Shown: positions 16,134 through 32,678 of the stretch, piece after piece | How positions within the stretch are numbered: the first letter of the stretch is position 1 | Layout of the letters: each line of letters opens with the position of its first letter | The notes under the pieces: generated by a model | The model's database searches: none | What the model was told of the DNA's origin: nothing | Seen by the model: only the letters and a program-made list of their open reading frames with translations | Origin: an uncultured Myxococcales bacterium | GTDB taxonomy: Bacteria > Myxococcota_A > UBA9042 | Reading direction: 5' to 3' | Length of the DNA: 44,808 nt | NCBI GenBank assembly: GCA_903842345.1 | Contig: CAIMLR010000019.1 | Location: 1 to 44,808, forward strand | Made by a program: the position numbers and the translations under genes

Positions 16134-16205
16134 GCAACTGTCACACGCTTGCCACCTTTCGCGCGGTCCCCTACGCTCCGCCCAGCGGCGCATGGAGTCG
16201 TCGCA

Positions 16206-17645
16206 TTGCCGGACGGACCGTTGTCTGGACGCCTTGAACGTGAAATCCAGTTTGTCCTGAACCACCGCGTTGTGGCGCTGCGTGCCCACCCGGCGACGCC
16301 GCTGCTTGACGCGATTCGCGGGACTTTTGGCCAAAAAGCGACGAAGGAAGGCTGTCGCGAAGGCGATTGCGGCGCGTGTACGGTGCTGCTCGGCCAACTG
16401 CGCGACGGCCAGATGGCGTACCGCGCCGTAACGTCGTGCCTCGTGCCGATTGGCGACGTCGCGGGCCAGCACGTCGTGACGGTGGAGGGCTTGCAAGGCA
16501 CCGCGCAGCAGCCCACGCCGGTGCAAGCGGCGCTGGTGGCGGAGCTGGGGACGCAATGCGGCTTCTGCACGCCGGGCATCGTGATGGCGCTGACGGGGTT
16601 CCTGCTGACGGCGCCGCACCTCAAACAGGACGAGGCGACGCTCGCACTGGCGGGCAACATCTGTCGCTGCACGGGCTACGCACCGATTCTGCGCGCGGCG
16701 GCGGCGCTTGTGGCCCAACATCAACCGCTCGCGACGGCGACCGACCGCGTGCCGGGCTTGGTGGCGACGCGCGCCCTGCCCGGCTATTTCGCCCGGATTC
16801 CCCAGCTCCTCGCTGAGCTGCCGCCGCGCGTGCGCCTGACGCAGTTGCCCGCGGGTGCGCGCGTCGTGGCGGGCGCGACCGACCTGCTTGTGCAAGGGCC
16901 GCACCGCTTGCTGGATCACGAGGTCGCGCTGGCGGGCGATCTCTGCGGCGACGCGATTGAAGTCGTGGACGGCGATCTCGTCATCGGCGCGGGCGCGACG
17001 ATGGAGGCGCTCTCCCACCATCCGCTGTTTCTCGCCTTTGTGCCGGAGATGCCGCAGTACGCCCGGCTGATTGCGTCCCAGCAAATCCGCGAGCGCGCGA
17101 CGCTGGCCGGCAACATCGTCAACGCCTCGCCGATCGGCGATTTTGTCATTTTGCTGCTGGCGCTCGGCGCGCACATCCGCCTGCAAGGGCCCGATGGGAC
17201 GCGGGAAATGCCGTTGGACCAGTTCCACACGGGCTACAAGCGGATGGATTTGCGCCCGCGCGAGTGGCTCGCGGCGATTCGCCTCCCGGCGGGCCAGCGC
17301 GACAAGCGCGTGGCGTTTGAGAAAGTCAGCAAGCGCACGCACCTGGACATCGCGAGCGTCAATTCCGCGCTGTGGATCCAGGTCGACGGTCAGCGGATTG
17401 TCGCGGCGCGACTGGCGGCGGGCGGCGTGGCGCCGGTGCCGAAGTTCCTCAGCCAGACGTCCGAGGCGCTCCGCGGCAAGCCGCTGGACAACGCGACGGT
17501 GCGGCTGGCGGGTGAGCTGGCGCGCGCGGAAGTGACGCCGATTTCGGACGTGCGCGGCTCGGCGCTCTACAAGTCGCGGCTGCTGGAACGGCAGGTCTTT
17601 GCCCATTTTCAGCGGCTGTTCGCCATCGAGGAGGGCCTGCCGTGA
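16206..17645 (+). CDS. xdhA: Xanthine dehydrogenase small subunit (2Fe-2S and FAD)
   Basis: About 479 residues. It carries electrons from the molybdenum centre to NAD through two [2Fe-2S] clusters and FAD. The plant-type ferredoxin cluster is CREGDCGAC plus Cys 78 (residues 50, 55, 58, 78). The second cluster uses QCGFC (118, 121) and CRC (153, 155). The FAD domain follows from about residue 170, with ARVVAGATDLLVQ and ATLAGNIVNASPIGD. No ATG fits: TTG 16206 has GGAG eight bases upstream and is preferred; TTG 16221 is an alternative. Its TGA overlaps the GTG start of the large subunit (GTGA). The next expected maturation gene, xdhC, is not in the window. Confidence 0.92.
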   Translation: MPDGPLSGRLEREIQFVLNHRVVALRAHPATPLLDAIRGTFGQKATKEGCREGDCGACTVLLGQLRDGQMAYRAVTSCLVPIGDVAGQHVVTVEGLQGTAQQPTPVQAALVAELGTQCGFCTPGIVMALTGFLLTAPHLKQDEATLALAGNICRCTGYAPILRAAAALVAQHQPLATATDRVPGLVATRALPGYFARIPQLLAELPPRVRLTQLPAGARVVAGATDLLVQGPHRLLDHEVALAGDLCGDAIEVVDGDLVIGAGATMEALSHHPLFLAFVPEMPQYARLIASQQIRERATLAGNIVNASPIGDFVILLLALGAHIRLQGPDGTREMPLDQFHTGYKRMDLRPREWLAAIRLPAGQRDKRVAFEKVSKRTHLDIASVNSALWIQVDGQRIVAARLAAGGVAPVPKFLSQTSEALRGKPLDNATVRLAGELARAEVTPISDVRGSALYKSRLLERQVFAHFQRLFAIEEGLP

Positions 17646-19891
17646 AGCCGCAAGACCCGCTCCTGCACGTGCTCGGTCAAAGCGTGTACGTGGACGACCT
17701 GCCTGAGCCCGCCGGCATGCTGCACGCCGCGGTCTTTGGCTCTCCCATCGCGCATGGTCTCCTGCGCGGGCTGGATGTGCGCCAAGCGCGGGCGATCCCG
17801 GGCGTCGTGGCGATCGTCACGGCGGCGGACGTGCCGGGGCGCAACCAAATCGGCGGCATGGTGCAGGATGAGCCGCTGCTGGCTGACGGCGCGGTGCATT
17901 TTGTCGGCCAGCCGGTGGCGTGCGTGGTGGCGACGTCGCGGGAAGCCGCGCATCGCGGCGTGGCGGCGCTGACGGCGGACATCGACGAACTGCCCGGCGT
18001 GTTTGAGCCGCGCGAGGCGCACCGGCTGGGGCAGCTCATCATCCCGTCGCGGACGATGGCGCGCGGGGACGTGGATGCGGCGCTGGCAACGGCGGCGGTC
18101 GTGGTGCGCGGGCAGACGCGGACGGGCAGCCAGGAGCACCTGTACCTGGAGACGCAGGGCGCGCTGGCGGTGCCGGAGGAAGGCGGTCGGGTGCGGATTG
18201 TCAGCTCGACGCAAGCGCCGACGGCGGTGCAGCGCGCGGTCGCGGGCGTGCTGGGCGTGGGCATGCACGACGTGGAAGTCGACGTGACGCGGCTCGGCGG
18301 CGGTTTTGGCGGCAAGGAGGATCAGGCGACGCCATGGGCAGCGCTGGCGGGTCTGGCGGCGTGGCTGCTGCGCGCGCCGGTCAAGCTGGTGCTGAGCCGT
18401 GAAGACGACATGCGGATGACCGGCAAGCGCCATCCGTACGACGCCGACTACGCGATGGGGCTGACCGGGGACGGCGACATCGTCGCGTGGCAGGTCGAGT
18501 TCTTTCAGAATGCCGGCGCGTCGGCGGATTTGTCGCCCGCGGTCCTGGAGCGCTCCCTGCTGCACGCGACGGCGAGCTACGGGATCGCCAACGTCCGCGC
18601 CATTGGCCATTGCTGCCGGACCAACTTGCCGCCCTTCACCGCCTTTCGCGGTTTTGGCGGTCCGCAGGCGATGTTCGTCATGGAGAGCGCGCTGGACCAC
18701 GCGGCGCGCGTCCTCGGCGTGGATCGCAGCGTCCTGCAACAGCGCAACTTGACCCGCACTGGGGACGTGCAGCCGTGCGGCATGCCCATTCGCAGCGACA
18801 ACGCCGTGCGGACGTTTGAGCAGGTGATCAGCCAGTTCGGTTTCGCCGCCAAGCAGCGGGAAATCGCCGCGTTCAATGCCGCCAACCGCCGGTTCAAGCG
18901 CGGCGCGGCGCTGATGCCCGTGTGCTTTGGCATCTCGTTTACGACGACATTCCTCAACCAGGCGTCCGCGCTGGTGCATGTCTACACCGACGGCAGCATC
19001 GCGGTGAGCACAGGCGCGGTTGAAATGGGCCAGGGCGTCAACGCCAAGATCCAGGCGGCGGTCGCGGGCGTGTTCGGCGTCGCGGACGCGCGCGTGCGGC
19101 TGGAATCGACGAACACGGCGCGCGCTGCCAACACGTCGCCAACTGCGGCAAGCAGCGGCGCGGACCTGAATGCGGCGGCGGCAGCGCAAGCGGCGCGTGC
19201 GATTGCCGAGCGTCTGAAGTCCCACGCAGCGGCGCTTCTGGAATGCCCGGAATCGGCGGTTGCCCTCGCCGATGGCCGCGTGACCGCCCACGGCGCGGCG
19301 ACGGAGTGGACGTTTGAGAAACTCGCCCAAGCGGCGTATTTCGCCCGGGTCAGCCTCTCCGCTCAGGCGCACTACGCCACGCCGGGCATCCTGTTCAACC
19401 GCGCGACGGAATCCGGCGTCGCCTTTGCCTACCACGTTTTTGGCACGGCGCTCACGGAAGTCACGCTGGACGCGCTGCTTGGCACGTACACCATCGACCG
19501 CGTGAGCTGCGTCCACGACGTGGGCACCAGCTTGCGGCGGGACATCGACCGCGGTCAGGTGGAAGGCGGCATCGTCCAAGGCGTGGGCTGGATGACGATG
19601 GAGGAGGTCGTCTACCGCGACGGCAAGCTCCAATCGGCCAACCTGGGCACGTACAAAGTGCCCGATATCCTCGCCGCGCCGGCGCTGGACGTGGCGTGGC
19701 TGGAGGAGCCGAATGCGCCGAGTCACGTGACGGGCAAAGCGGTGGGCGAGCCGCCGCTGATGTACGGCATTGGCGCGTATTTTGCCCTGCTGAACGCAGT
19801 CCGCGCGGCTGGCGTCGCCGCTGACGGGATGCTGGAAGCGCCGATGACGCCCGAGCGCGCGCTGCTGTTGCTGTGCGGCGAACGGCCATGA
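17642..19891 (+). CDS. xdhB: Xanthine dehydrogenase large subunit (molybdopterin)
   Basis: 749 residues, normal length for the bacterial molybdenum subunit. Hydroxylates hypoxanthine/xanthine at the molybdenum centre. Visible motifs: QEHLYLETQ (Glu at the substrate site, about 165-173), RLGGGFGGKEDQ (about 217-228), FRGFGGPQA (Arg expected to bind the purine, about 335-343), VEMGQGVNAK (about 459-468), NTSPTAASSGADLN, and GKAVGEPPL with the catalytic Glu near residue 702. The Glu/Arg pair supports a true xanthine dehydrogenase over an aldehyde or CO dehydrogenase. GTG start 17642 overlaps the xdhA stop; the stop overlaps the ATG of the following membrane-protein gene. Confidence 0.95.
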   Translation: MKPQDPLLHVLGQSVYVDDLPEPAGMLHAAVFGSPIAHGLLRGLDVRQARAIPGVVAIVTAADVPGRNQIGGMVQDEPLLADGAVHFVGQPVACVVATSREAAHRGVAALTADIDELPGVFEPREAHRLGQLIIPSRTMARGDVDAALATAAVVVRGQTRTGSQEHLYLETQGALAVPEEGGRVRIVSSTQAPTAVQRAVAGVLGVGMHDVEVDVTRLGGGFGGKEDQATPWAALAGLAAWLLRAPVKLVLSREDDMRMTGKRHPYDADYAMGLTGDGDIVAWQVEFFQNAGASADLSPAVLERSLLHATASYGIANVRAIGHCCRTNLPPFTAFRGFGGPQAMFVMESALDHAARVLGVDRSVLQQRNLTRTGDVQPCGMPIRSDNAVRTFEQVISQFGFAAKQREIAAFNAANRRFKRGAALMPVCFGISFTTTFLNQASALVHVYTDGSIAVSTGAVEMGQGVNAKIQAAVAGVFGVADARVRLESTNTARAANTSPTAASSGADLNAAAAAQAARAIAERLKSHAAALLECPESAVALADGRVTAHGAATEWTFEKLAQAAYFARVSLSAQAHYATPGILFNRATESGVAFAYHVFGTALTEVTLDALLGTYTIDRVSCVHDVGTSLRRDIDRGQVEGGIVQGVGWMTMEEVVYRDGKLQSANLGTYKVPDILAAPALDVAWLEEPNAPSHVTGKAVGEPPLMYGIGAYFALLNAVRAAGVAADGMLEAPMTPERALLLLCGERP

Positions 19892-20412: not shown

Positions 20413-20955
20413 CTACGGCGCGATCTCGCCCCAAATTCCGGCGTCCGCGCCCATGTAGCCGCCAGCGATCAGGTGCACGTCCGCCTCGGCCGACAGCCGA
20501 CAGCCCGGCGTCGTCGTCCACACGCGCACGTGCGCGGTCTGGCCAATCAGATCCGCGAGCGGCGTGTCATTGAACATGAACGGGACTTCAGTGGTTTCCA
20601 TGCCGCCATTGGCCGTCGTGCGCGTGTTCGCCGGAATCGGTCCGTAGGTCTGGTCCAGCAGCCCGGCAATTGTCACGTGGGTCGCCACTTTCACGATGGC
20701 CGGCAAGGGCAGCCCGGTCCGCAGCCCGACCCGCACGAAGATGAAGCCCTGGAACCCTTGCGTCACCGGCAGCGACGTCCCCAACGTGAGCTCGACCGGC
20801 AGTTCGGCGACGTCGATGCCAAACAGCGTCGCCGTCGCCGTGCAGGCGCTCACGTCTGGCTGCTGTTCCTGGGTCACATCGTTCTGCGCCACGGTCGGCG
20901 GCGTACAAGCCGTCAGCAGCAGCGGGCAGAGCAGGAGCAGGCGCGTCGTCAGCAT
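20413..20955 (-). CDS. Lipoprotein, last gene of the multihaem/ApbE operon
   Basis: 180 residues. MLTTRLLLLCPLLLTAC is a lipoprotein signal (Cys 17). The mature part looks beta-rich, about 140 residues, like an immunoglobulin-type or copper-binding-like sandwich (LPVELTLGTSLPVTQGFQG, VATHVTIAGLLDQTYG, AHVRVWTTTPGC). Besides the lipid Cys it has two cysteines (SACTA and PGCRL) that may bond. ATG 20955 directly follows the TGA of the DUF3570 gene, so it is cotranscribed. No family recognised; its place suggests an accessory of the outer-membrane component. The xdh-linked membrane gene converges on it with a 27-bp gap. Confidence 0.8.
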   Translation of the reverse strand: MLTTRLLLLCPLLLTACTPPTVAQNDVTQEQQPDVSACTATATLFGIDVAELPVELTLGTSLPVTQGFQGFIFVRVGLRTGLPLPAIVKVATHVTIAGLLDQTYGPIPANTRTTANGGMETTEVPFMFNDTPLADLIGQTAHVRVWTTTPGCRLSAEADVHLIAGGYMGADAGIWGEIAP

Positions 20956-22044
20956 TCAAATCTCCAAGGTCACGTCAAAGGAGACGAGCAGCGCGGTCCG
21001 CGACGTCAGGAAAGCGTAGTCCAGGTAGCGCATGTGCAGCACGTCGGCGCCGAGGGAGAAGCGCAGCGCGTCAAAGCGGGAAATCTCCGGGCTCCACTCC
21101 AGGTGCGTGCCGCCGAGCGCGGTCCACATCGGCCCCAGTTCTTTGTCCGCCGTGCGAAAATCGGGCGCCATCGGGAACGTGACGTAACGCGAACGGTAGA
21201 AATTCGCGGCGTTTTGCACGTGCCCGCGGGCCTCGGCGGAGAGCGTCCAGACGTCGCTGCCCAGGCTCCAGGCCGCGCGCAGCGTCAGCGTGTGGGCGAG
21301 CATGCCCCAGGAATCGGCGTAGAACCGGTAGTCGGCGAGGCCAAACAGCGACGGCAAGAGCCGCGAACGGAGGCGCGCGGTCAGCGTCTGGCGAAAGCGC
21401 GTGTCGGGCGTCTGCTCGGCCACTGACGTCTGGTGCAGGCCCTCACTCGCGGCGTACAGGCGCACGTAGCGATACGCGTTGGCCTGAAACCCGTCGACGA
21501 ACGACAGGCCGTACGCGAGGTCGGCCGCGGCGGTCGGCGAGAGGACCCGCGTCAGGGAAAAATCGGCGTCGTGCGTCTGGCGCTGGCGGGAGAAGCTTGT
21601 GTCATGCGTGCGGCCGATCTCCGAGTGGCTGAACCCGTAGTTGATGCCGAGGGAGACCTGGCGCGCGAGGACGTCCCGCGTGCCGCCGACGCGGACGGAG
21701 TGCGTGAGGAAGTCCGGCTCGTAGGAGAGGTGATAGCCCGCGTCAACGTTCTGGCCCTCGCCAAAAGCGTAGCGTCCGCCGGCGTCAACTTGCGTGCGCG
21801 TCTCCGAGTAGCCTTTGGGCGATGCTGCGGTGACGAGATCGACGGACGCCGCGGAGATGAGGTCCATGCTGACGACGGACGTGACGGTCGCCTTGCCCGC
21901 GTCGACGCTGCCGGAGACGGTGGGGGAGATGACCTGGACGTGGTCCGTGTCGCTGTAGATGAGGACGGAGCTGTGCGCGCGATCGGCCGCCCACGCGGAC
22001 GCGCTGGCGAAACAGGCAAGCAAGATGATGGCGTATCTAGTCAC
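20956..22044 (-). CDS. DUF3570 family outer-membrane beta-barrel protein
   Basis: 362 residues from GTG 22044, which overlaps the DUF4266 stop by eight bases. The signal peptide is YAIILLACFASASAWAADR. The rest alternates short strands and turns and ends in a hydrophobic beta-strand (TALLVSFDVTLEI), as expected of an outer-membrane barrel. The N-terminal region contains MDLISAASVDLVTAASPKG (about residues 60-78); DUF3570 proteins keep a D-x-x-S-x-A-[ST]-P-type motif here. The D-L-(I/V)-(S/T)-A-A-S pair resembles the ApbE flavin-attachment consensus D-x-x-[ST]-G-A-[ST] except Gly to Ala. Family assignment rests on this motif, the barrel-like pattern and the neighbours ApbE, thioredoxin and DUF4266, a recurrent gene association. 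Confidence 0.82.
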   Translation of the reverse strand: MTRYAIILLACFASASAWAADRAHSSVLIYSDTDHVQVISPTVSGSVDAGKATVTSVVSMDLISAASVDLVTAASPKGYSETRTQVDAGGRYAFGEGQNVDAGYHLSYEPDFLTHSVRVGGTRDVLARQVSLGINYGFSHSEIGRTHDTSFSRQRQTHDADFSLTRVLSPTAAADLAYGLSFVDGFQANAYRYVRLYAASEGLHQTSVAEQTPDTRFRQTLTARLRSRLLPSLFGLADYRFYADSWGMLAHTLTLRAAWSLGSDVWTLSAEARGHVQNAANFYRSRYVTFPMAPDFRTADKELGPMWTALGGTHLEWSPEISRFDALRFSLGADVLHMRYLDYAFLTSRTALLVSFDVTLEI

Positions 22045-22240
22045 AGCCGCACGCGCCTCCGCCGCCGCCCGCGCCGCCTGAGGCGCCTTCACGGACCGAG
22101 AAGACGTGGGTCCGTGCGTTGCCGCGTTCGGGGTCACGTGCCCACTGCATGCGCCGATCCGCGAGCACACCGCGCTGCCACGGCTGCACCGGCACGCACG
22201 CGGTCGCCAGCAGCAGGATCAACGTCAAGAGCCGCATCAT
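22037..22240 (-). CDS. DUF4266 small lipoprotein
   Basis: 67 residues. MMRLLTLILLLATAC is a lipoprotein signal (Cys 15), then a short mature peptide: WQRGVLADRRMQW, THVFSVREGASGG, a run of glycines and a terminal CGCD. DUF4266 proteins share this exact plan, including W-x-R-G-x-L-A, H-V-(Y/F)-x-S-x-EG-(T/A)-SGG and a C-terminal CGC(N/D). The CxC end could bind a metal or take part in thiol exchange with the neighbouring thioredoxin domain; that is inference. Start ATG 22240 overlaps the ApbE-fusion TGA (ATGA). It is the most telling marker of this gene set because it occurs almost only beside ApbE and DUF3570. Confidence 0.9.
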   Translation of the reverse strand: MMRLLTLILLLATACVPVQPWQRGVLADRRMQWARDPERGNARTHVFSVREGASGGAGGGGGACGCD

Positions 22241-23715
22241 GGCTTCACCACCGGCAGGTCGCTGCTTTGCCAAATCTTGCCCGTCGCGTCGACAAGCACG
22301 CCCTTGGCGCCCTTCGCGCGCAGAAAGTCCAAGCCGCGCGCGCCGCCGAGGATGAACGCTGTCTTGGTGAGGATCTCCGCGTCCAGCGCGTTGCGGGCGA
22401 GCACCGTCGCGCTCTGGCTGGCGGTTGCCGGGAAGCCGGTGCGCGTGTCGAGAATGTGGTGATAGCGGCGGCCGTCGATGATGGCGAAGCGCTCGTAGTC
22501 GCCGCTCGTGGAAAACGCCGCGTCGTGCACGTCCAGGCTGCCGATGAGCTCACCCTTGTTGCGCGGATGGGCGATGCCGACCCGCCACGGCCGTTGGCCG
22601 TTGTGTCCGCCACAGTACAGGTCGCCGCCGGCTTGCACGGCAAAATCCCTGAAGCCCAGTCTGGCCAGCAGCGCGACTGCGATGTCCACCGCCGCGCCCT
22701 TGCCGATACCGCCGAGGTGAATCGCCATGTCGGGCTTGTCCAGGAACGCGGTCCGCTTGGCCGCATCCAGGTGCAAATGCCGCCACCCGACGCGCGCCAA
22801 CCGCTCCTGGACTTCCGCGTCGGTGGGCACGCGCGCCAGCTTGGTCGGCTCGTGGCTGCCCGGCGGCGTGTCAAAACGCCAGACTTCGCCCAACGGCGCA
22901 AACGTGATGTCAAAAAGGCCGTCGGAAGCCTGACTGCCCTGCACTGCCGCCTGCAGCACCGCCAACGTCTCAGGACTCACCGCCACCGGCTGCTTGCCCG
23001 CCGCCGCGTTGATGCGCGACACCTCGCTGTTGGGCGACCACGTGGTCCACAGGCCCTCCAGCCGGCCAAACTCCGCAAACGCCTGCTCCGCCGCCGCTTT
23101 CGCCGCCGCTTCGCCGACCTGCCCCGGGACTTTGGGGCACACGACCGCCTGCACCTTGGTGCCCATCGACACGCCCGCGCGCGTCTGCGCCCCCACGCAC
23201 GCCTGACCGCCCGGCGGCGGCGGCTCCACTGAACCACCCGGCGGGGTCGGCAACAGCTTGAGCACGGCATCCCGCAGCGCCGGATACGGCTCGCCAGCCA
23301 CCCGCGCCACAATCCGCCCCTCCGCGTCGAGCACAATCGCGTACGGCATCTCCGTCATGCCCAGCGCCTCGGCCGCCTTGCCGTCGGGATCGCGCAGCAC
23401 CGGCACCTGCACGTGGTGTTTCGCCAGAAATGTGGCGACCGGCGTCACATCCTCGCCCACGTCCACGGCAAACCAGTGGACGCGGTCGCCCAGCGCGCGC
23501 GCGGTCCGGTCGTGCTCTGGCAGGGCACGCTTGCAGGACTCGCACCACGTCGCCCAGAAATCGAGCACAACGGGCTTGCCCCGCAGGTCCGCCAGCCGCA
23601 CCGGCGCGCGCTGAAGTCCCGCGAGCGTCACGTCTGCGGCCATCGGCAACGGATCCGCGCGGAGCATCGCCGCAAACAGCAGGATCGGCAGGGTCAGCAG
23701 GAGCAGGCATTTCAT
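22237..23715 (-). CDS. TlpA-type thioredoxin fused to ApbE FMN transferase
   Basis: 492 residues. A signal peptide (MKCLLLLTLPILLFAAMLRA) places it in the periplasm. Residues 25-155 are a TlpA/ResA-like thioredoxin with WATWCESC (Cys 58, 61) and the cis-Pro site TEMPYAIV. After a Pro/Gly linker, residues about 180-490 are ApbE, which moves FMN from FAD to a Ser/Thr of a target protein and needs Mg. Its motifs are SDGLFDITFAPL (264-275), HLGGIGKGAAVDIA (333-346), AGGDLYCGG (362-370), STSGDYERF with HHILDTRTGFPA (402-430) and DAEILTKTAFILG. Usually these are two genes; here they are one. ATG 23715 has GGAGGAC upstream. It sits 12 bp after the propeller-cytochrome gene. Confidence 0.93.
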   Translation of the reverse strand: MKCLLLLTLPILLFAAMLRADPLPMAADVTLAGLQRAPVRLADLRGKPVVLDFWATWCESCKRALPEHDRTARALGDRVHWFAVDVGEDVTPVATFLAKHHVQVPVLRDPDGKAAEALGMTEMPYAIVLDAEGRIVARVAGEPYPALRDAVLKLLPTPPGGSVEPPPPGGQACVGAQTRAGVSMGTKVQAVVCPKVPGQVGEAAAKAAAEQAFAEFGRLEGLWTTWSPNSEVSRINAAAGKQPVAVSPETLAVLQAAVQGSQASDGLFDITFAPLGEVWRFDTPPGSHEPTKLARVPTDAEVQERLARVGWRHLHLDAAKRTAFLDKPDMAIHLGGIGKGAAVDIAVALLARLGFRDFAVQAGGDLYCGGHNGQRPWRVGIAHPRNKGELIGSLDVHDAAFSTSGDYERFAIIDGRRYHHILDTRTGFPATASQSATVLARNALDAEILTKTAFILGGARGLDFLRAKGAKGVLVDATGKIWQSSDLPVVKP

Positions 23716-23727
23716 GGCGAGGTCCTC

Positions 23728-26229
23728 CTACAGCGTCCGCACGAAGTTGATGAGGTCCTGCAGCTGATAGCGATCCAGCGAGCTTGTGCCACCGTGCGTG
23801 TCCACCGCGCCGTCGCGTTCATTGCGGCCCACTTCGCCCGGCAGCAGGACGGGATGCCCAGGCGTCGCCAGCGACTCGCGCAGGGAGCGCCCGCGGCCAT
23901 CGTGGAAAAACCGCGTTTGCGGCCGATCCCAGAGCCCGCGCAGCGGCGTCGAACCGACAAAAAGCCCCGCCGGCGATTGCTGCGTCAGCGGAAAAGTCGC
24001 GATGAAGGCGTCGTTGACGAGCATCGCGTCGGAGCCATCGGGCCGCCGCTCCGGCGTGATCACCGGCGGAAACCGGATCGGCATGCCAAACGGGGAAAAC
24101 AGCGTCGGCGCCGACGCGGTCGTTGTCACCGGCAGCGGATGGCAATTGTTGCAGCCCACGCCCGGCTGGCGGAACAGCACTTCGCCGCGCGTCGCCGTCG
24201 GCAGGTTCATCGCGCGGTTGGGATTGGGCAGCAGGCGCGGCGTGCGCAGCATGAAGAGGCCGAGCGCCTTGGTGATCCCGTCAAAATCGAGGTCGATCGG
24301 CTTGCGCGCGCCCGTGCCGTCGTCCTTGAAGAGCGCGTCGCCAAACGTTTTGTCGCGGCCAAAAAGCTTGCGCGCGCCGTCCTTGATGAAGTCCGCGCGC
24401 TTGTTGAACGGCGTCTGCGCGTAGGGCCGCGTCGCGCACTCGGGCGGCGGATCGTCGGCGCAGTGGAGCACGTGATTGCAGCCGGCGATCGCCGGATCGG
24501 CCTGACATGCGGTGATCTTGGGGTACTTGCCCCAGACCATCATGTCCAACTCCTCGCAGCAGAAATTCTCGCGGCGCGCGAACTCATTGAGCACCGGGAA
24601 GAAGTTGTCCTCGTTCATCGCCTGTTCAAAGAACCACGGTCGCGTGTCGTACAGGCCGCGCTGGGCCATCACGTTGCGCAGGCTCCACGCCCGGCTGGAC
24701 TGCAGCGGCATGACGAACGGCCGCGCGATGGCGCCATTGTCGCGGTGGCATTGCACGCACGTCTGGTCGCCGTCGATGGTAAAGACCGACGTCATCTCAT
24801 TGATGCCCTCGCCCAACTCCGCGTCCGTCTGCGGAAACGGCCCGGCGGCCACATCGCCGATCACCACATGCTGTTCCGCGAGTCCCGCCGGCTTGCCCGT
24901 GTCAATGAACGTCAGCGCCTCGCCGAGCCGGTCCACCGTGAGCAGGCGCCCGTTGCCGACCGCGGCAATCGCCTTGGGATTGTAGCCCGTGCGGTAGAGG
25001 TTGCCGGCGGTCTGCAGCGCCGTGAGCGCGCCGTCCTGGGCGATGGCGAAGCCCTGCACTTCGTTTGAGCCGGCAAAAGCCACCCACAGCTTGTCCTCCT
25101 GCACCGCCATCGACTCCGGCAGCGCGCCCGCGACAATCCACGTGTCCTTCTGCGGCAGCCAATTCAGCACGTCCGGCGACCATTGATCCGCCAGCGGCAG
25201 CGCCAGGCCCTTGTTGGGATGCTCCGGGTCCACGTCGCGGAAATCGCGGTAGGCGATGGTATCGGACGTGTAGCGGTGCACTTCCTGCAGCGTCGCGGTC
25301 TCGATGACGCCGATTTCGTTTTGCTGATCCTGAAAGCTCAGGTTGGCCGTGTTGTCGCCCGGATGGCCATCCGCATCGATGTCCAGCCCCGTCGTCGGCT
25401 GCGCGCCGAGGCCCTTGCCCATGTCCGCCACGTAGAGGAAGGCGCCGTGCACGAGCAGCCCGCCGATCGGCGAATGCAGGTCGAGGTGGCTGATGCCCTT
25501 GGGCGCCCCGACCGTCGTCGTCGCCGGATTGGCGTCCACGTCGACGAGCTTGCCAGTCGCCGCATCCAGCACGGCGATCGTGCAGCCCGCGATGGAGCCG
25601 ACAAAGAGCCGCTTGCCATCGCTGGAGAGCGCCATCGGCCCAGGATTGTCGCTCACGGGCGTGCCCATCGCCTCCTCCGGCGCCGCGCCGTCGTAGTTTG
25701 TCGACTGCACCGCAAAGCCGTGCGTCAGGTCCAAATTCCACCACAGCACGCTGTCCTTCCACCGGTTCGCCAGATAGAGCCGCTGCCCATCGGCGCGAAA
25801 AATCGCCGTTTCCGTGTAGTACGGCACCGGCACCCGCGCGACCTCCGCGTCCGTCGCCGCGTCCAGCACGATCGCGTGATCGGCGAAGCGCAGCGTCACG
25901 ACCACGTACTTGCCGCTGGGATCCACGGCGCACTGCCACGGCGCCTTGTCGAGGTGCACGCGCTTCACCGGCTGACCGGTCGCGAGATCGATGACCGCAA
26001 CGTCCGTTCCCGGATCGTCGTCGATGCCCGCGAGCATCACCCACGCCTTCGTCGCATCGGGCGACACACAGACTGCGCGCGGCCGGTCCCGGTGCGGCTG
26101 CGGCGTCCACAACGGGTCCGTGGCGGCCATCGGATTGGGGTCCAAAGGCAGCACGTGGATCGGCGCCGGCGTTGCCGCACACGCCGCGAGCGCGAGCGCC
26201 AGGAACGCGAGGAGCGCGCGAGGCATCAT
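23728..26229 (-). CDS. Beta-propeller / dihaem cytochrome c peroxidase-like lipoprotein
   Basis: 833 residues. Lipoprotein signal with Cys 17 (ALALAAC). Residues about 45-480 form a beta-propeller of YVTN/YncE-like blades (TKAWVMLAGIDD, VAVIDLATGQPVKRV, GKRLFVGSIAGCTIAVLDAA, KLWVAFAGSNEVQGFAI). Then come a first haem site CVQCH (491-495), a stretch with extra cysteines (FCCEEL, ITACQ, AGCNHVLHC, PECAT), and a second haem site CNNCH (693-697). The C-terminal part has TPLRGLWDRPQTRFFHDGRG, the usual distal segment of MauG/CcpA-type dihaem proteins. It probably binds a partner by the propeller and carries out electron transfer or peroxidase-type chemistry in the periplasm. ATG 26229 overlaps the upstream stop (ATGA). 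Confidence 0.9.
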   Translation of the reverse strand: MMPRALLAFLALALAACAATPAPIHVLPLDPNPMAATDPLWTPQPHRDRPRAVCVSPDATKAWVMLAGIDDDPGTDVAVIDLATGQPVKRVHLDKAPWQCAVDPSGKYVVVTLRFADHAIVLDAATDAEVARVPVPYYTETAIFRADGQRLYLANRWKDSVLWWNLDLTHGFAVQSTNYDGAAPEEAMGTPVSDNPGPMALSSDGKRLFVGSIAGCTIAVLDAATGKLVDVDANPATTTVGAPKGISHLDLHSPIGGLLVHGAFLYVADMGKGLGAQPTTGLDIDADGHPGDNTANLSFQDQQNEIGVIETATLQEVHRYTSDTIAYRDFRDVDPEHPNKGLALPLADQWSPDVLNWLPQKDTWIVAGALPESMAVQEDKLWVAFAGSNEVQGFAIAQDGALTALQTAGNLYRTGYNPKAIAAVGNGRLLTVDRLGEALTFIDTGKPAGLAEQHVVIGDVAAGPFPQTDAELGEGINEMTSVFTIDGDQTCVQCHRDNGAIARPFVMPLQSSRAWSLRNVMAQRGLYDTRPWFFEQAMNEDNFFPVLNEFARRENFCCEELDMMVWGKYPKITACQADPAIAGCNHVLHCADDPPPECATRPYAQTPFNKRADFIKDGARKLFGRDKTFGDALFKDDGTGARKPIDLDFDGITKALGLFMLRTPRLLPNPNRAMNLPTATRGEVLFRQPGVGCNNCHPLPVTTTASAPTLFSPFGMPIRFPPVITPERRPDGSDAMLVNDAFIATFPLTQQSPAGLFVGSTPLRGLWDRPQTRFFHDGRGRSLRESLATPGHPVLLPGEVGRNERDGAVDTHGGTSSLDRYQLQDLINFVRTL

Positions 26230-26678
26230 GGCGTCACCCCGTCGATCCACGTGAGGATGGCTTGGCACTCCGGATCGCTCGGCGCGGCAAAGACGGCCCC
26301 GGGCTTGTGGCCACCGACGCCGCCGACCGCGAGGGCTTTTTGGATGAGCGTGGTGTCGCGGCCACGGGACGCGTCGAGGAAGCCGCGCGTCGCGTTGTAG
26401 TCCGCGTCCCATTCGGCGGTCGTCAGCGGATGTGAGGTGAACTGATCGGCGGCGGCCAAGCGCCGACGGCCGACCGCGTAGATGGCATACGGCCGGTCCG
26501 AGTTGCCGTGGCACGTCGCGTCGCCGCAGCGTTTGGCGAGGATGGGGCCGGCCTCAGCGGGAAAGGTGGCGCGCGACGGATTGGGCAGCGCGGTCATGCC
26601 CGACGGATCCACAACGCAGCCAGGCAGGGCCAGCAACAACGCCAGCACGCGAACGCTATTTCGCAACCGGCAAGCCAT
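26226..26678 (-). CDS. Mono-haem (CX4CH) lipoprotein
   Basis: 150 residues from ATG 26678; ATG 26693 five codons upstream is an alternative. VLALLLALPGC is a lipoprotein signal (Cys 21). The only haem motif is CGDATCH (residues 51-57), that is C-x4-C-H, set in AGPILAKRCGDATCHGN like the N-terminal site of the 994-residue neighbour (VPVLETRCADSSCHG). The C-terminal PECQAILTWIDG resembles the last helix of cytochrome c domains. It looks like a single detached cytochrome domain of the neighbour and probably an electron shuttle. It overlaps the upstream gene by 23 bases and the downstream gene by four. Confidence 0.82.
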   Translation of the reverse strand: MACRLRNSVRVLALLLALPGCVVDPSGMTALPNPSRATFPAEAGPILAKRCGDATCHGNSDRPYAIYAVGRRRLAAADQFTSHPLTTAEWDADYNATRGFLDASRGRDTTLIQKALAVGGVGGHKPGAVFAAPSDPECQAILTWIDGVTP

Positions 26679-29640
26679 GATAGGCCGCGCCATACTCGAT
26701 CCAGCGGACAATGGCCAAGCGTTCGTCATCGGTCAGTTGCGCCGATCCAGCCGGCGGGCACGCCTTGTCCAGCGTGCGATCCGCATCATACTCACGATTC
26801 ATGACCTTCTCAGCCAGGTAGGATCCGCGCGCCCGGTAGCCATCGGCGTCCACGTACTTGTATCCAGCGGCTGATCCGGCGCCTTTTTGCAGCAGATTTT
26901 CATAAGCTTGCGTGTAGTGCTGGGTCTGCGTCGCCGATAGATCCAGACCACCCGCGGGCGTGACATTGCCATGACAACCGGAGGTCGCGCATTTCGCCGT
27001 CAGGACCGGCTGGACGTCCTTGGTGAAGTCACTGAACACGAAGAACGAGCTGTCGATGATCGGCAGCACGTTGGGCGTCCGGCGATCGGCTTGGGCGTAC
27101 ATCGCCGCCGTGACAGAAGCTTGCGTGATGAAATCCGTTGGCGCCTGGAGCACGGAGCTCTTCTGGCCATCCATCGCGCCGTGACAGCCGCCGCAACGGG
27201 CGTTGTAGGAGGTGAGCGGGATGCCGACCGGGAAACGCTCGCCCGGCAGGGTCGCGTACCACTGATGCTGCAGCGTGCCGACGGCGATGTGGTCCTTGTC
27301 CAGCGTCACGACGCGAACCGGCACTTGCGCCGGAATCATCGCCGCCAGACTGCCGTCCGACGCCGGTGGCACTTCCAGCGCGGCAAACAGCGGCATCCGC
27401 CCGGTGAGGGACGTCACGGTCGCATTGGGCATGTTGTGCAGCGTCTCCGCCGCCGGCACGGGCGAGACGTCCAGCGGCCCGGCGATCGACACCGGCACCA
27501 CCGCACGCACATAGGCGATGTCGTCGCGCAGCGTGCGCGCCGTCGTGGGCGACAAGTGCGCGAGCACCGCTTCAATCACCTGCACGCCGCTGTGGACAAG
27601 CGTCGCGGTCTTGTCCGTGTCGTTCCACTTGCGGGCGTGCGGCGGATCCTCCGCCGGGCGCTGATACACCGCCACCGGCTGCGACCACGCGATCTTCGGG
27701 TCAGTCAGCAGCACCGTCGTCTTGGCGATCTTAGGCCGATTCGTCGCGCGATCCTCCGTCAGCGTCACCTGCACGAGCTCCGTGCGCGGCGTCAGCGTCC
27801 CATCGCTCAGGTCCATCGGCCCGGCGGCATGCGCCACGAGCAGGCTGCCATCGGGCAGCGGCGTCGGGTCGCGCCACAGGCCATCCACCGACGGGCCGGT
27901 CCGCGCCGCGTCCTGCGTCAGGATCGTCAGCGCGTGGCGGAAGTTGGGCAGCGTCGCATCCGCTTCCTTGCCTTCCGCGATCTCCACTGCGAATTGCCGT
28001 TCCAACACAGCGAGTTGCCCGCCGCGCCAGCGATTATTCTGGTCCATCAGCACCAGCGTCGCACGTCCGTCCGCCAGCTCGCGAATCCGGTAGAAAACCT
28101 GCGGATCTTCACTCATGCCAAAGTGCGGATGCGCTTCCGGCTGGATGTGGTACGTCGAGTCGTGATCGATCGGGAAGCGGAAGAAGACGCCCTTGTACCC
28201 GCCTTCAGCCGACCGCTTGATGGTGTACGCCATGGTGCCCGCGAACTCGCCGACCGCGAGGAAATGCGGCGCCACTTCCGGCACGACCGTGTACGTCAGG
28301 CGCTCCACGTTCTGGCCATCGGCGTCCATGACATACAGGTCGGCATTCTGGAACGACGCCAGGTCCGCCAGATCCGCCGCGCGCGTCGAGCTGAAGTAGA
28401 TGCGTTCGTCAGGCGGCGTACCGGTCTTGGGCGTGAAACCGCCGTTGGGGCCCCACGTCGGCGCAAAGTTGCCGACCGTCAGGCCGTTGGCCGCCGCAGA
28501 TTTGTCGCTGGTCAGCTGCTTCAGGCCCGTGCCGTCGACGCCAATCGTGTAGAGGTTGTGGGCGTCAGCGGCGGTCGTGCGCATGGAGAACACAATCGTC
28601 TTGCCGTCGTGGCTGATGGCCGGATCGCGCACGTCCGCGGGCTGGCTGTGCGCGCTGGCGGTCAGGTTGACCGGCGCTCCCGTGTACGGCGGATCGAGGC
28701 GGTAGAGGTCGCTACCCGGCGTGAACGGCGCAACGTCAAACGGACCGGCAGCAGGCAGTGGTCCACCGACGAGGACGATTGGCGGCTGAGCCGGCGCGGC
28801 AATTTCGTTGCCAACGGCCGCTTTGCGCTCCGCGGCGATCCACTCCAGGATGCCCTTGACGGTCGCCGAGTCGCGTGGATCCTTGCCCCCTTCCATCTCC
28901 TTGGCCAGGAAGATGTCATTGCCGCCTTTGTGCGGAATGCCCCCCTGCTCGAACGGCAGGATCTTCGCCAGCAAGCGCGACTGCAGCGGGTTGCCCCACA
29001 TCGAGACGTTGCGCTTGGCCTCGCCATACGTGGCGCGCAAGTCAGCGCGGGAGAGGTTGAGGGTGCCCGGGACCGTGGGCGCCTGGAAAACCGCGCCGCC
29101 AAACATCAAGCTGCCGTGGCAAGTCGAGGTCGCGCAGCCACGGTCGATGAGCAGCGGATAGACGTTGGTGGCGAAGAGCTGTTCATTGATGGTGAGCGGC
29201 GCATCCTTGGCCGCCTCGCCGCCGTCGCTGACCGTCGCGGCCCAATCGGCGAGCGTGCGGTAGTCGGCGTCGTCACGCGACTGGAAGAGCGAACCCTTGA
29301 AGTGATACTGCCCACCCATCGCGACCGGCAGCGTCTTGCGCAAGAAGCTGGAGTAGCTGACGTCCTCGGTCGAATTGATCTTCGCCTTGACCGATGCCAG
29401 CGCGCTGGGCACGTCCGTGATGCGCCCCGTCGCGTCAACCGTAAAGGTCAGCCAGCGCTGCGGATCCAGCTGATGCTGCACGTCCCCGGCGAGCGCGCCA
29501 TGGCAACTGCTGTCCGCGCACCGCGTCTCGAGGACCGGCACCACTTTCTCCTGAAACGCGTCAGAGGAAGAGGAAGTGCCACACGCGGTGAGCGCGAGAA
29601 AGGCCAGAAGAAGGGGACGAATCCGGAACGAAGCAGCCAT
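26656..29640 (-). CDS. HzsA-like tetrahaem propeller lipoprotein, first gene of operon
   Basis: 994 residues. ATG 29640 is chosen because GGAGG lies six bases upstream and the lipoprotein signal follows at once (LLLAFLALTAC, Cys 20). Four haem sites: CADSSCH (41-47) and CATSTCH (169-175), both CX4CH; CGGCH (816-820); CATSGCH (884-890), CX4CH. Residues about 300-700 form a TolB/WD-like propeller (DPAISHDGKTIVFSMRT, DERIYFSST, NADLYVMDADGQNVERLTY). N-terminal haem domains, central propeller and C-terminal haem domains reproduce the order of the hydrazine synthase alpha subunit family. No HzsB/HzsC partner is in the window, so hydrazine synthesis is not claimed. The reaction is unknown; it is probably the catalytic or substrate-binding core of this operon. 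Confidence 0.85.
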   Translation of the reverse strand: MAASFRIRPLLLAFLALTACGTSSSSDAFQEKVVPVLETRCADSSCHGALAGDVQHQLDPQRWLTFTVDATGRITDVPSALASVKAKINSTEDVSYSSFLRKTLPVAMGGQYHFKGSLFQSRDDADYRTLADWAATVSDGGEAAKDAPLTINEQLFATNVYPLLIDRGCATSTCHGSLMFGGAVFQAPTVPGTLNLSRADLRATYGEAKRNVSMWGNPLQSRLLAKILPFEQGGIPHKGGNDIFLAKEMEGGKDPRDSATVKGILEWIAAERKAAVGNEIAAPAQPPIVLVGGPLPAAGPFDVAPFTPGSDLYRLDPPYTGAPVNLTASAHSQPADVRDPAISHDGKTIVFSMRTTAADAHNLYTIGVDGTGLKQLTSDKSAAANGLTVGNFAPTWGPNGGFTPKTGTPPDERIYFSSTRAADLADLASFQNADLYVMDADGQNVERLTYTVVPEVAPHFLAVGEFAGTMAYTIKRSAEGGYKGVFFRFPIDHDSTYHIQPEAHPHFGMSEDPQVFYRIRELADGRATLVLMDQNNRWRGGQLAVLERQFAVEIAEGKEADATLPNFRHALTILTQDAARTGPSVDGLWRDPTPLPDGSLLVAHAAGPMDLSDGTLTPRTELVQVTLTEDRATNRPKIAKTTVLLTDPKIAWSQPVAVYQRPAEDPPHARKWNDTDKTATLVHSGVQVIEAVLAHLSPTTARTLRDDIAYVRAVVPVSIAGPLDVSPVPAAETLHNMPNATVTSLTGRMPLFAALEVPPASDGSLAAMIPAQVPVRVVTLDKDHIAVGTLQHQWYATLPGERFPVGIPLTSYNARCGGCHGAMDGQKSSVLQAPTDFITQASVTAAMYAQADRRTPNVLPIIDSSFFVFSDFTKDVQPVLTAKCATSGCHGNVTPAGGLDLSATQTQHYTQAYENLLQKGAGSAAGYKYVDADGYRARGSYLAEKVMNREYDADRTLDKACPPAGSAQLTDDERLAIVRWIEYGAAYHGLPVAK

Positions 29641-30030: not shown

Positions 30031-31119
30031 ATGGTCATTTCGCGCCGTCTCATCTCCCTGTCCATCGCCACTGCGCTGCTGTCCAGCGGCCTCGTCGCCT
30101 GCAAGAAGGACGCCCCCGCGCCGACGCCTGCCGCGAGCACGCCGGCTGCGGCCAAGTCCCTGCAACGCAGCGATTTGGCGATGTTCGGTCCGTTGCCAGA
30201 AGCGTTTGACAGTCCGACCAACCCGCCGAGCGCAGCGAAGATCGCGCTGGGGCAGCTGCTCTACAACGACAAACGGTTGTCGAAGAATCAGGACATCTCC
30301 TGCGCCTCGTGCCATGAGTTGGACAAAGGCGGCGCCGATTCCCGGCCGACGTCTCCGGGCCACAAGGGGCAGCTGGGCGGCCGCAACGCGCCGACCGTGT
30401 TGAACGCTGCCGGTCAGTTCGTGCAGTTCTGGGACGGTCGCGCCAAGGACGTGGAAGAGCAGGCCAAAGGGCCGATTCTCAATCCGGTCGAGATGGCGAT
30501 GGCGAGTTCCGAGACGGTACTCGCCGTGCTGAAGTCGATCCCGGAGTACGTCGCGGCGTTCCAAGCGGCGTTTCCGGGCGAAGCCGATGCGCTGACGTAT
30601 GACAACCTCGGCAAGGCGATTGGCGCATTTGAGCGCAAGCTGACGACCCGTTCGCGCTGGGACAAGTACCTGACCGGCGACGATGCGGCGCTTCAGGATG
30701 ACGAAAAGGCCGGCGCGCTTGAGTTCATCGCAGCGGGTTGCACGGCTTGCCACAACGGCGTGCTGATCGGCGGCGCCATGTATCAGAAAGCCGGACTCGT
30801 GAAGGCGTGGCCGAATCAGAAGGACTTGGGACGTTTTGGCGTGACCAAGCAGGAGGGCGACAAGCTCTTTTTCAAGGTGCCCTCCCTGCGCAACATCGCG
30901 AACACGGCGCCGTATTTCCACGATGGCAGCGCCGCGACGCTGGACGTGGCGATCCGGACCATGGCGGCGCATCAGTTGGGCAAGGAGTTGACGGACGCGC
31001 AGGTGGCGGCGATTGCCAAGTGGCTCGGTTCGTTGACGGGCGAAGTGCCGGCGGCATTGGCGGCCGTTCCCAAGCTGCCGGCGTCCACGGAGACGACGCC
31101 GAAACCGGTTGCGGATTGA
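30031..31119 (+). CDS. Dihaem cytochrome c peroxidase / MauG family lipoprotein
   Basis: 362 residues; ATG 30031 follows GGAGG by five bases. Lipoprotein signal LLSSGLVAC (Cys 24), then an Ala/Pro linker. The two haem motifs are CASCH (91-95) and CTACH (237-241), with the family segments LGQLLYNDKRLSKNQDISC, NAPTVLNAAGQF, FWDGRAKDVEEQA and VPSLRNIANTAPYFHDG. The family reduces peroxide with electrons from small cytochromes or, as in MauG, oxidises a partner protein. No methylamine dehydrogenase genes are near, so a general peroxidase or partner-oxidase role is open. It is divergent from the HzsA-like operon and upstream of a second dihaem gene. Confidence 0.93.
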   Translation: MVISRRLISLSIATALLSSGLVACKKDAPAPTPAASTPAAAKSLQRSDLAMFGPLPEAFDSPTNPPSAAKIALGQLLYNDKRLSKNQDISCASCHELDKGGADSRPTSPGHKGQLGGRNAPTVLNAAGQFVQFWDGRAKDVEEQAKGPILNPVEMAMASSETVLAVLKSIPEYVAAFQAAFPGEADALTYDNLGKAIGAFERKLTTRSRWDKYLTGDDAALQDDEKAGALEFIAAGCTACHNGVLIGGAMYQKAGLVKAWPNQKDLGRFGVTKQEGDKLFFKVPSLRNIANTAPYFHDGSAATLDVAIRTMAAHQLGKELTDAQVAAIAKWLGSLTGEVPAALAAVPKLPASTETTPKPVAD

Positions 31120-31319: not shown

Positions 31320-32678
31320 ATGACGAAGCATTCTGAACGGTTGTCTATGGAATTTGCGACGGGCCGCGGTCGCTGGGCGGGTGTCGCACTCGCGCTCGCG
31401 ACGTCGTGGTCGTGCGCACGCGAGGCCCCCAAGGTCGTCGAGCCGCCACCGGAAGCCCCAACGGCTGAAGCGCCCGCGGTTGCCGTGCCCGTCGCAGCCT
31501 CGCCAGTCGCAGCCTCGCCAGTCGCCGCGCCTGTTGCACCCACGCCTGCTGCGGCGTTGGCTCAGGACCTCATCACCGGAGCCTCCCCCAAGCCCGGCGA
31601 TCTGCCGATGCCCAAGCTGAACGCGCCGAAACTGGCCGTCCCGAAAGGCGGCGAAGCGTGGGCGCGGGAGTTTGCGAATACGCCGGCCGTCGGCGAATTG
31701 GGCGGCCCGCGCGCCGGTCTGAGTGACCAGGAACTGATCGACTTTGTCCGCGGCCGCATCGCGTTTCGCGACGGACCGGGTGAAGCGGGCGGGCTGGGAC
31801 CGCGCTACATCCAGAAGGCCTGCGCGGAGTGCCACTCCAATCCGGTCATTGGCGGCGAAGGGGACATGGACCACGCGCTCACGATTGGCATCCGCCCGGG
31901 CGAGGTCGAGGTCGTCTTCGTCCACGAAAAAGCGATCCCAGGATTCAAGCCGGACGTCGTCCCCAAGGGCATGATCCTCGCGAAGTCGCGCGCGCCCAAC
32001 CTGCTGGGCGTTGGCCTGATGGACAAGATTCCGCCGGGCGTCATCGCCAGCCACGCCGATCCGGAGGACCGGGATCACGACGGCGTCCGCGGCGTGGTCA
32101 ACATGCGGGACAACGTGCTCGCCCGCTGGGGCCTGAAGTCCCAGGACCTGACGCTGCACCGCCTTGTCGTCGGTTCGCTCTACCAGGACCTCGGCATGAC
32201 GCTCGAGGAAAACGCGGACATGCAGAAGGACGCCGACAAGGTCGCCGATCCGGAGGCGAGCAAGGAGCTGATCCACCTGTATGAAGCGTTCCTCAGCAAC
32301 CTCGCGCCGCCGACGCGCGGTCCGATCAACGACGCGGTGCGCGCGGGCGAGCATGAGTTCGCACTCGCCGGGTGCACGGCGTGCCACATCGCCGATTTGG
32401 GCGAGGCCAAAGGGATCTACAGCGACCTGCTGATCCACGACATGGGCAAGGACGACGACAACAAGATGCCCGACGCGAAGGCCGGTGGTCATGATTGGCG
32501 GACGGCGCAGTTGTGGGGGCTCCGCCTGCACAAGGGGTTCTTCCACGACCATCGCGCCAAGAACTACGATCAGGCCATCGACATGCACCGCGGCGAAAGT
32601 GACAAGTCCCGCCAGGCCGTGCAGTTGCTGCCGCCGGAGCGGCGCAAGCAGTTGATGGCGTTCCTCGCCTCACTCTGA
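31320..32678 (+). CDS. Dihaem oxidoreductase-like protein (DHOR, DUF1111)
   Basis: 452 residues. ATG 31320 is preceded by GGGGGAGGG. The N-terminus has a hydrophobic stretch ending ATSWSC (possible lipobox, Cys 32), then a repetitive Pro/Val/Ala linker (SPVAASPVAAPVAP). The haem motifs are CAECH (168-172) and CTACH (352-356). RAPNLLGVGLMDKIPPGVI, followed by SHADPEDRDHDGVRG and ARWGLKS, matches the DUF1111/DHOR core (R-x-P-x-L-x-G-x-G-L...IP...ADP-D...DG...G...G...W-K). The family was called a putative thiol oxidoreductase, but its true substrate is not established. It lies 200 bp downstream of the dihaem peroxidase on the same strand. Confidence 0.92.
   Translation: MTKHSERLSMEFATGRGRWAGVALALATSWSCAREAPKVVEPPPEAPTAEAPAVAVPVAASPVAASPVAAPVAPTPAAALAQDLITGASPKPGDLPMPKLNAPKLAVPKGGEAWAREFANTPAVGELGGPRAGLSDQELIDFVRGRIAFRDGPGEAGGLGPRYIQKACAECHSNPVIGGEGDMDHALTIGIRPGEVEVVFVHEKAIPGFKPDVVPKGMILAKSRAPNLLGVGLMDKIPPGVIASHADPEDRDHDGVRGVVNMRDNVLARWGLKSQDLTLHRLVVGSLYQDLGMTLEENADMQKDADKVADPEASKELIHLYEAFLSNLAPPTRGPINDAVRAGEHEFALAGCTACHIADLGEAKGIYSDLLIHDMGKDDDNKMPDAKAGGHDWRTAQLWGLRLHKGFFHDHRAKNYDQAIDMHRGESDKSRQAVQLLPPERRKQLMAFLASL

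Follow-up and report, generated by a model that had tools for sequence, protein, structure and literature searches.

A hydrazine synthase-like gene pair encoded with ApbE, DUF3570 and DUF4266 proteins in a recurrent Myxococcota operon

To our knowledge, hydrazine synthase (HZS) was long thought to be without relatives outside the anammox bacteria. Here we describe seven genes on the minus strand of contig CAIMLR010000019.1 (positions 20413–29640), from an uncultured Myxococcales bacterium, that encode relatives of the HZS subunits together with a putative flavin and thiol electron-transfer system; the window, meaning the whole stretch analysed, is this single contig of 44.8 kb, and the genome is 5.85 Mb and 95.7% complete. 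The genes are numbered P1–P7 in order of transcription, and the recurring P1–P7-type gene set is referred to as the cassette. Two kinds of described system come close to it. The existence of a wider family of HZS-like proteins was put forward in 2023 (PMC10732223), and co-localised genes for an alpha and a fused beta-gamma protein lacking key HZS residues, as in the cassette, were described in 2025 and placed in clades I–IV (Hagglund et al. 2025, PMC12758564); those loci are in Planctomycetota, Desulfobacterota and others, with FG-GAP or ABC neighbours or c554 extensions, and the paper makes no mention of ApbE, flavin, DUF families or Myxococcota (our comparison is by description). Clusters of ApbE, DUF3570, DUF4266 and thioredoxin were described in 2021 (Meheust et al. 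2021, PMC8238504) and have the same four components as the cassette, two flavinylation sites and a CXC in DUF4266, but no HZS-like or other haem complex was described with them and their sites are SGAS/T, compared to SAAS/TAAS in the window. Each half is thus known, and we found no paper joining them; in the openly licensed literature none pairs 'hydrazine synthase' with 'ApbE' or 'flavinylation', although such an absence is no proof.

P1 is an alpha-type protein with four haem motifs (CX4CH at residues 41–47, 169–175 and 884–890, and CX2CH at 816–820), in agreement with a sequence-only reading of the window that called it a tetrahaem HzsA-like lipoprotein. It scores below threshold against Pfam HZS_alpha (18.6 vs 26.6 bits) and reaches 50.7 bits against the NCBIfam HzsA model, whose equivalog cut-off is 800. 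A profile of nine P1 orthologues nonetheless has a single PDB match, the Kuenenia HZS alpha subunit (5c2v_A, E=1.1e-25), with the homology including the alpha-II haem domain. The lipobox Cys20 and the haem Cys and His residues are invariant in the alignment, except that the 884–890 motif is spaced as CX2CH in some orthologues. Alignment with the anammox alpha subunits shows two additional N-terminal CX4CH haem sites in P1 that are not present in HZS. P2, predicted from the earlier reading to be a CX4CH lipoprotein, carries one such motif and is lipoprotein-like when its sequence is read, as is P7; it resembles the N-terminal haem domain of P1 (26–31% to P1 N-termini by tblastn), and a Pfam search gave no family. 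An apparent recoding of several P1 matches ('1 TGA inside') was rejected, as a natural stop is aligned to the last model column in both cases checked (G034 and G210).

P3 combines a beta-propeller with a dihaem peroxidase/HZS gamma-like domain containing two CX2CH motifs. Its profile matches both HZS beta (5c2v_B, E=7e-17) and HZS gamma (5c2v_C, E=3.8e-7), ranked behind a generic propeller, and it scores below threshold (26.9 bits) against the NCBIfam model of fused HzsBC (hydrazine_BC). Residue alignment shows that both gamma haem motifs and a C-terminal D-x-HG-x-TS motif are common to P3 and anammox beta-gamma proteins. The gamma-type dihaem domain, including a D-x-HG-x-TSHL motif, is strongly conserved in the P3 family, and a Cys pair is kept without exception in the ten closest sequences but not in every more distant locus; in P3 this pair (Cys557-Cys558, in ENFCC) lies 22–23 residues past a shared Glu, compared to 20 for HZS gamma Cys165, which makes a third covalent haem link, and the residues are unaligned. 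P3 had been read as a peroxidase-like propeller/dihaem protein; the propeller and dihaem domains stand, but the resemblance is to fused HzsB-HzsC, and Pfam CCP_MauG does not match P3 even though both CxxCH motifs are present. Bacterial dihaem cytochrome c peroxidases and MauG resemble the C-terminal part of P3 in fold and in having two CxxCH motifs, and HZS gamma itself belongs to this superfamily (PMC12607021), whereas P3 has its dihaem domain behind a propeller, has an HZS gamma-like C-terminal DTHGGTSxL motif, and in the cassette never occurs without an alpha-type subunit.

Because P1 matches HZS alpha and P3 matches HZS beta and gamma, the operon encodes both halves of an HZS-type complex, an alpha plus beta-gamma pair, and not a lone HzsA-like protein. 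The earlier statement that no soluble substrate enzyme is present is accordingly not retained: P3 is the probable cognate partner of P1, which puts a candidate substrate enzyme within the operon. Structural comparison is in line with this pairing. Foldseek ranks 5c2v_A first for the P1 model (E=3.6e-16 over 852 columns) and 5c2v_B second for that of P3, but the models were built from alignments of 9–10 sequences and are of low confidence (mean pLDDT 52.7 and 59.6 for P1 and P3), and we therefore use these matches as support and not as proof.

Both subunit types are present and beta-gamma is fused as in Scalindua, which raises the question of a true HZS outside anammox. We compared the cassette with genuine anammox loci, using 27 Planctomycetota genomes above the NCBIfam HzsA cut-off (at least 800 bits). 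Anammox alpha subunits have CxxCHxGSY at haem alpha-I, with the proximal ligand Tyr591 (CxxCHxxxY) in 9/9 sequences; in the cassette proteins CxxCH is followed by a GAMDG-like sequence, and the tyrosine is absent from P1 and from all aligned relatives. The position of gamma His144 is occupied by Phe in P3 (PWFFE) and in most cassette members. In trees of both alpha and beta-gamma proteins, anammox HZS forms one long, fully supported branch distant from the cassette members. The cassette further differs from anammox HZS, with which it shares an alpha-type subunit with a propeller region and alpha-I and alpha-II haem sites, a beta propeller with a gamma dihaem domain, and adjacent genes (Kuenenia alpha-beta-gamma, PDB 5C2V), in that beta-gamma is always fused, alpha precedes beta-gamma, the proteins are lipoproteins, and they are linked to ApbE and DUF3570. 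With so low a score against the HzsA model and Tyr591 missing from every member examined, hydrazine chemistry is very improbable, and the P1/P3 system is, judged on its residues and trees, a relative of HZS outside the catalytic family.

The remaining genes encode the flavin and thiol parts. Hidden Markov model (HMM) searches place P4 (ApbE, 261 bits; AhpC-TSA, 61 bits; AhpC-TSA/Redoxin), P5 (DUF4266, PF14086, 67.5 bits) and P6 (DUF3570, PF12094, 106 bits) above the Pfam cut-offs, as the sequence-only reading had assigned them, and P7 matches no family above cut-off in Pfam or NCBIfam. That reading also took ApbE, thioredoxin, DUF4266 and DUF3570 to be a recurrent set, which is the published cluster, and one that often includes DsbD (PMC8238504). 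The CXC is at the C-terminus of 32/32 DUF4266 cassette members; those at L051, L052, L053 and L102 also have an SGAT/TGAT-like motif ahead of it, possibly a further flavinylation site or a Gly-rich linker. P6 has two ApbE-type sites in its N-terminal region, DLISAAS and DLVTAAS, in which the Asp is kept and Gly is replaced by Ala. Paired sites of the form D-x-x-[S/T]-x-A-[S/T], 8–12 residues apart, are present in 31/31 DUF3570 sequences examined; in about half of these the first is canonical and SGAT-like, while the subtype in the window has SAAS and TAAS. The precedent is the C. luteolum DUF3570 protein, flavinylated at two [S/T]GA[S/T] sites (PMC8238504), and by analogy it supports the view of P6 as a putative flavinylated barrel that moves electrons. 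The lipobox Cys is invariant in the alignments of P1, P3 and P5 (the invariant Cys and reading of the sequences were used here, because many short signal peptides escaped a strict lipobox regular expression); these cysteines fit membrane anchoring, and the lipoproteins are probably at the outer membrane. The host genome encodes DsbD-type and cytochrome c assembly proteins.

The gene set recurs in other Myxococcota. Loci were collected by searching whole genomes and by scanning fetched loci with HMMs, almost all of them from metagenome assemblies; the contig scan used two peptide patterns only and coverage of phyla is incomplete, and most relatives with a named record come from Myxococcota metagenome assemblies. 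We counted 44 Myxococcota places with a P1 of at least 400 bits (45 table rows, one place being counted twice) and scored partners within 9 kb of P1, finding DUF3570 at 31/44, DUF4266 at 32/44, P3 at 35/44, P7 at 27/44, thioredoxin at 19/44 and ApbE at 14/44. P2 adjoins P1 in cassette loci, and its counts omit PSI-style CX4CH matches that come from the N-terminal domains of P1 itself. The HzsA-like and ApbE/DUF3570 parts thus do occur together in other genomes. Three gene orders are seen: that of the window, P1-P2-P3-[P4]-P5-P6-P7; [thioredoxin]-P1-P2-P5-P6-P7-P3-[ApbE]; and ApbE-P5-P6-thioredoxin-P1-P2-P3. TlpA and ApbE are fused, split or relocated, and gene content is kept across many Myxococcota families; no other evidence speaks as strongly for joint function as this persistence despite rearrangement, and the set stays together as expected of a single extracytoplasmic redox unit, in partial agreement with the complete extracytoplasmic pathway suggested in the earlier reading. 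The alpha and beta-gamma trees broadly agree, and in both the DUF3570-linked members fall together within Myxococcota with few exceptions. ApbE is encoded somewhere in 26/27 cassette genomes, and no further conserved gene stands out around the cassettes in the loci compared.

It could be argued that two unrelated systems lie side by side in this genome by chance, since HZS-like pairs are also met without DUF3570, and ApbE/DUF3570/DUF4266 clusters without HZS (PMC8238504). However, DUF3570 is encoded in 137/379 genomes, with few copies in each, so that random adjacency within 9 kb is estimated at less than 1%, and the recurrent linkage in many families despite shuffled order already contradicts this explanation, which we regard as extremely unlikely.

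Other HZS-like genes and cassette neighbours were seen in Myxococcota. Stand-alone HzsA-like paralogues (L073–L081, ~175–260 bits) are without HzsBC-like, DUF3570 or DUF4266 neighbours, and another HZS-like type (L031, L032, L034 and L082) is followed by FGE-sulfatase-domain proteins. Mutually similar proteins are encoded near three cassettes (L047:9599-10888, L065:1258-2592 and L066:1664-3376), and those of L047 and L065 have a visible CxxCHPxxYxxW motif like that of cytochrome c554-type proteins.

We propose, with a confidence somewhat above even, that the operon encodes one envelope redox complex in which an outer-membrane HZS-like haem oxidoreductase is fed by covalent flavin on the DUF3570 protein. 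P1 and P3 would form the membrane-attached lipoprotein oxidoreductase, with P2 as an additional monohaem relay. The ApbE part of P4 would attach flavin mononucleotide (FMN) at the two sites in the N-terminal region of the P6 barrel, and this FMN would receive thiol electrons from a DsbD/CcdA-type protein by way of the P4 thioredoxin part and of the lipoprotein P5 with its CXC. The FMN would exchange electrons with the haems, most likely towards the peroxidase-like gamma haem. That haem would reduce a small oxidant, for which peroxide and a nitrogen oxide are the leading candidates, at the outer membrane or beyond it.

Several observations weigh against this proposal. DUF3570 is missing from 13/44 places, six of them at contig ends, leaving seven untruncated P1-family loci without it; three of the latter (L090, L098 and L100) group as a single clade of the alpha tree, in genomes that also have a full cassette, and therefore look like duplicates that lost their partners. 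ApbE is absent from many cassette loci, often being encoded elsewhere in the genome, and none was detected in G034 (86% complete). DsbD is outside the cluster, and the predicted P1 and P3 structures are of low confidence. The P6 sites are not [S/T]GA[S/T], and in a model protein the Gly-to-Ala change roughly halved flavinylation without abolishing it (PMC12052999), so that the sites in the window are plausible but weaker.

The abundance of haems, the barrel and the lipoproteins also suggest a porin-cytochrome-like conduit, in which the haem proteins would only pass on electrons, for extracellular electron transfer or the reduction of metal (iron), and would have no active site dedicated to a small molecule, and a VIT1 iron transporter is present in some DUF3570 clusters elsewhere (PMC8238504). 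We consider this improbable in view of the strong conservation of the gamma-type domain with its Cys pair and C-terminal motif; moreover, no conduit is known to be built as a propeller and dihaem fusion, and none of the conserved genes was noticed to encode an iron transporter.

The direction of electron flow can be approached from a second set of loci. DUF3570 is missing beside the more distant HZS-like pairs of Planctomycetota, Verrucomicrobiota, Acidobacteriota, Myxococcota and Cloacimonadota, which adjoin RNF-type genes (RnfC-like, FMN_bind and NQR2/RnfD, Pfam-confirmed in representatives). ApbE is present in most of these loci, between or next to the two HZS-like genes; it was not detected nearby in two acidobacterial loci with RNF-type genes, and for the planctomycetes the contig or the fetched stretch stops soon after the RnfC-like gene, so that the module is covered only that far. 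Downstream of the pair, L054, L055, L056, L058, L060, L061 and L062 encode an FMN_bind protein with SGAT and a small multihaem cytochrome, and in Cloacimonadota L062:6471-8195 ApbE and an FGE domain share one open frame. Together with the DUF3570 linkage, these associations indicate two HZS-like lineages, both of them linked to electron carriers based on flavin. RNF-type modules are able to move electrons from the cytosol to the outside. HZS consumes electrons, with its gamma subunit taking them from a low-potential cytochrome (PMC12607021), and this, along with outward delivery by RNF, leads us to infer that an electron-consuming role is favoured.

The same comparison bears on an oxidative version, in which a MauG or peroxidase-like HZS-type complex oxidises an extracellular substrate or modifies a protein, while the barrel and thiol proteins remove electrons or protect the haems. 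The gamma-like domain keeps the dihaem peroxidase layout, with a Trp in P3 located two residues ahead of where HZS gamma His144 aligns, and in the window the adjacent divergent genes are MauG-like and DHOR-like. But those neighbours are not common to other loci, in the loci compared the cassette comes without any conserved gene for a protein substrate, and the RNF-type module of the sister lineage normally supplies electrons outward; we think the oxidative version rather unlikely. On the electron-consuming reading, a tentative extension, possible but short of probable, is that HZS-type alpha/beta-gamma proteins form a broad family of extracytoplasmic haem reductases commonly fed by covalently flavinylated carriers (the DUF3570 barrel in Myxococcota, an RNF-type FMN protein in several other phyla), of which anammox HZS would be a specialised cytochrome-using branch.

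All seven genes are present as first read, packed on one strand at 12 bp or less or overlapping (Table 1); four of the six junctions overlap, and this layout is typical of one transcript. Scans for promoters and terminators gave signals no more than in shuffles. Directly upstream and divergent are genes for a MauG/MbnH-like dihaem protein (30031–31119, plus strand) and a DHOR-like dihaem oxidoreductase (31320–32678, plus strand), which we dropped as parts of the system since they are absent from the other cassette loci compared. Two overlapping open reading frames (16149–17645 and 17642–19891, plus strand) appear from their translations to be a xanthine-dehydrogenase-type small and large subunit pair.

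Table 1. Genes of the operon, in order of transcription (positions in the window).
Gene	Position	Strand	Product and junction
P1	26656..29640	-	HzsA-like (HZS alpha-type) lipoprotein, 994 amino acids; coding 29640-26659, stop 26656
P2	26226..26678	-	Small CX4CH monohaem lipoprotein, 150 amino acids; start 26678 overlaps P1 by ~20 bp
P3	23728..26229	-	HzsB-HzsC-fusion-like lipoprotein, 833 amino acids; start 26229, ATGA overlap with P2
P4	22237..23715	-	Secreted TlpA-like thioredoxin (WCESC) and ApbE flavin transferase fusion, 492 amino acids; 12 bp gap after P3
P5	22037..22240	-	DUF4266 small lipoprotein, 67 amino acids, C-terminal CGCD (CXC); start 22240, ATGA overlap
P6	20956..22044	-	DUF3570, predicted outer-membrane barrel, 362 amino acids; GTG start 22044, overlap with P5
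P7	20413..20955	-	Lipoprotein, family unassigned, 180 amino acids; start 20955, no gap after P6; stop ends 20413

Weak HzsA matches in Myxococcota genomes should not be taken as anammox potential. The cassette ties HZS-like cousins whose function has so far been unassigned to a defined electron-transfer module, with two lineages and two flavin systems, and it offers HZS-like enzymes an electron donor that can be tested and gives the orphan DUF3570/DUF4266 systems a candidate enzyme.

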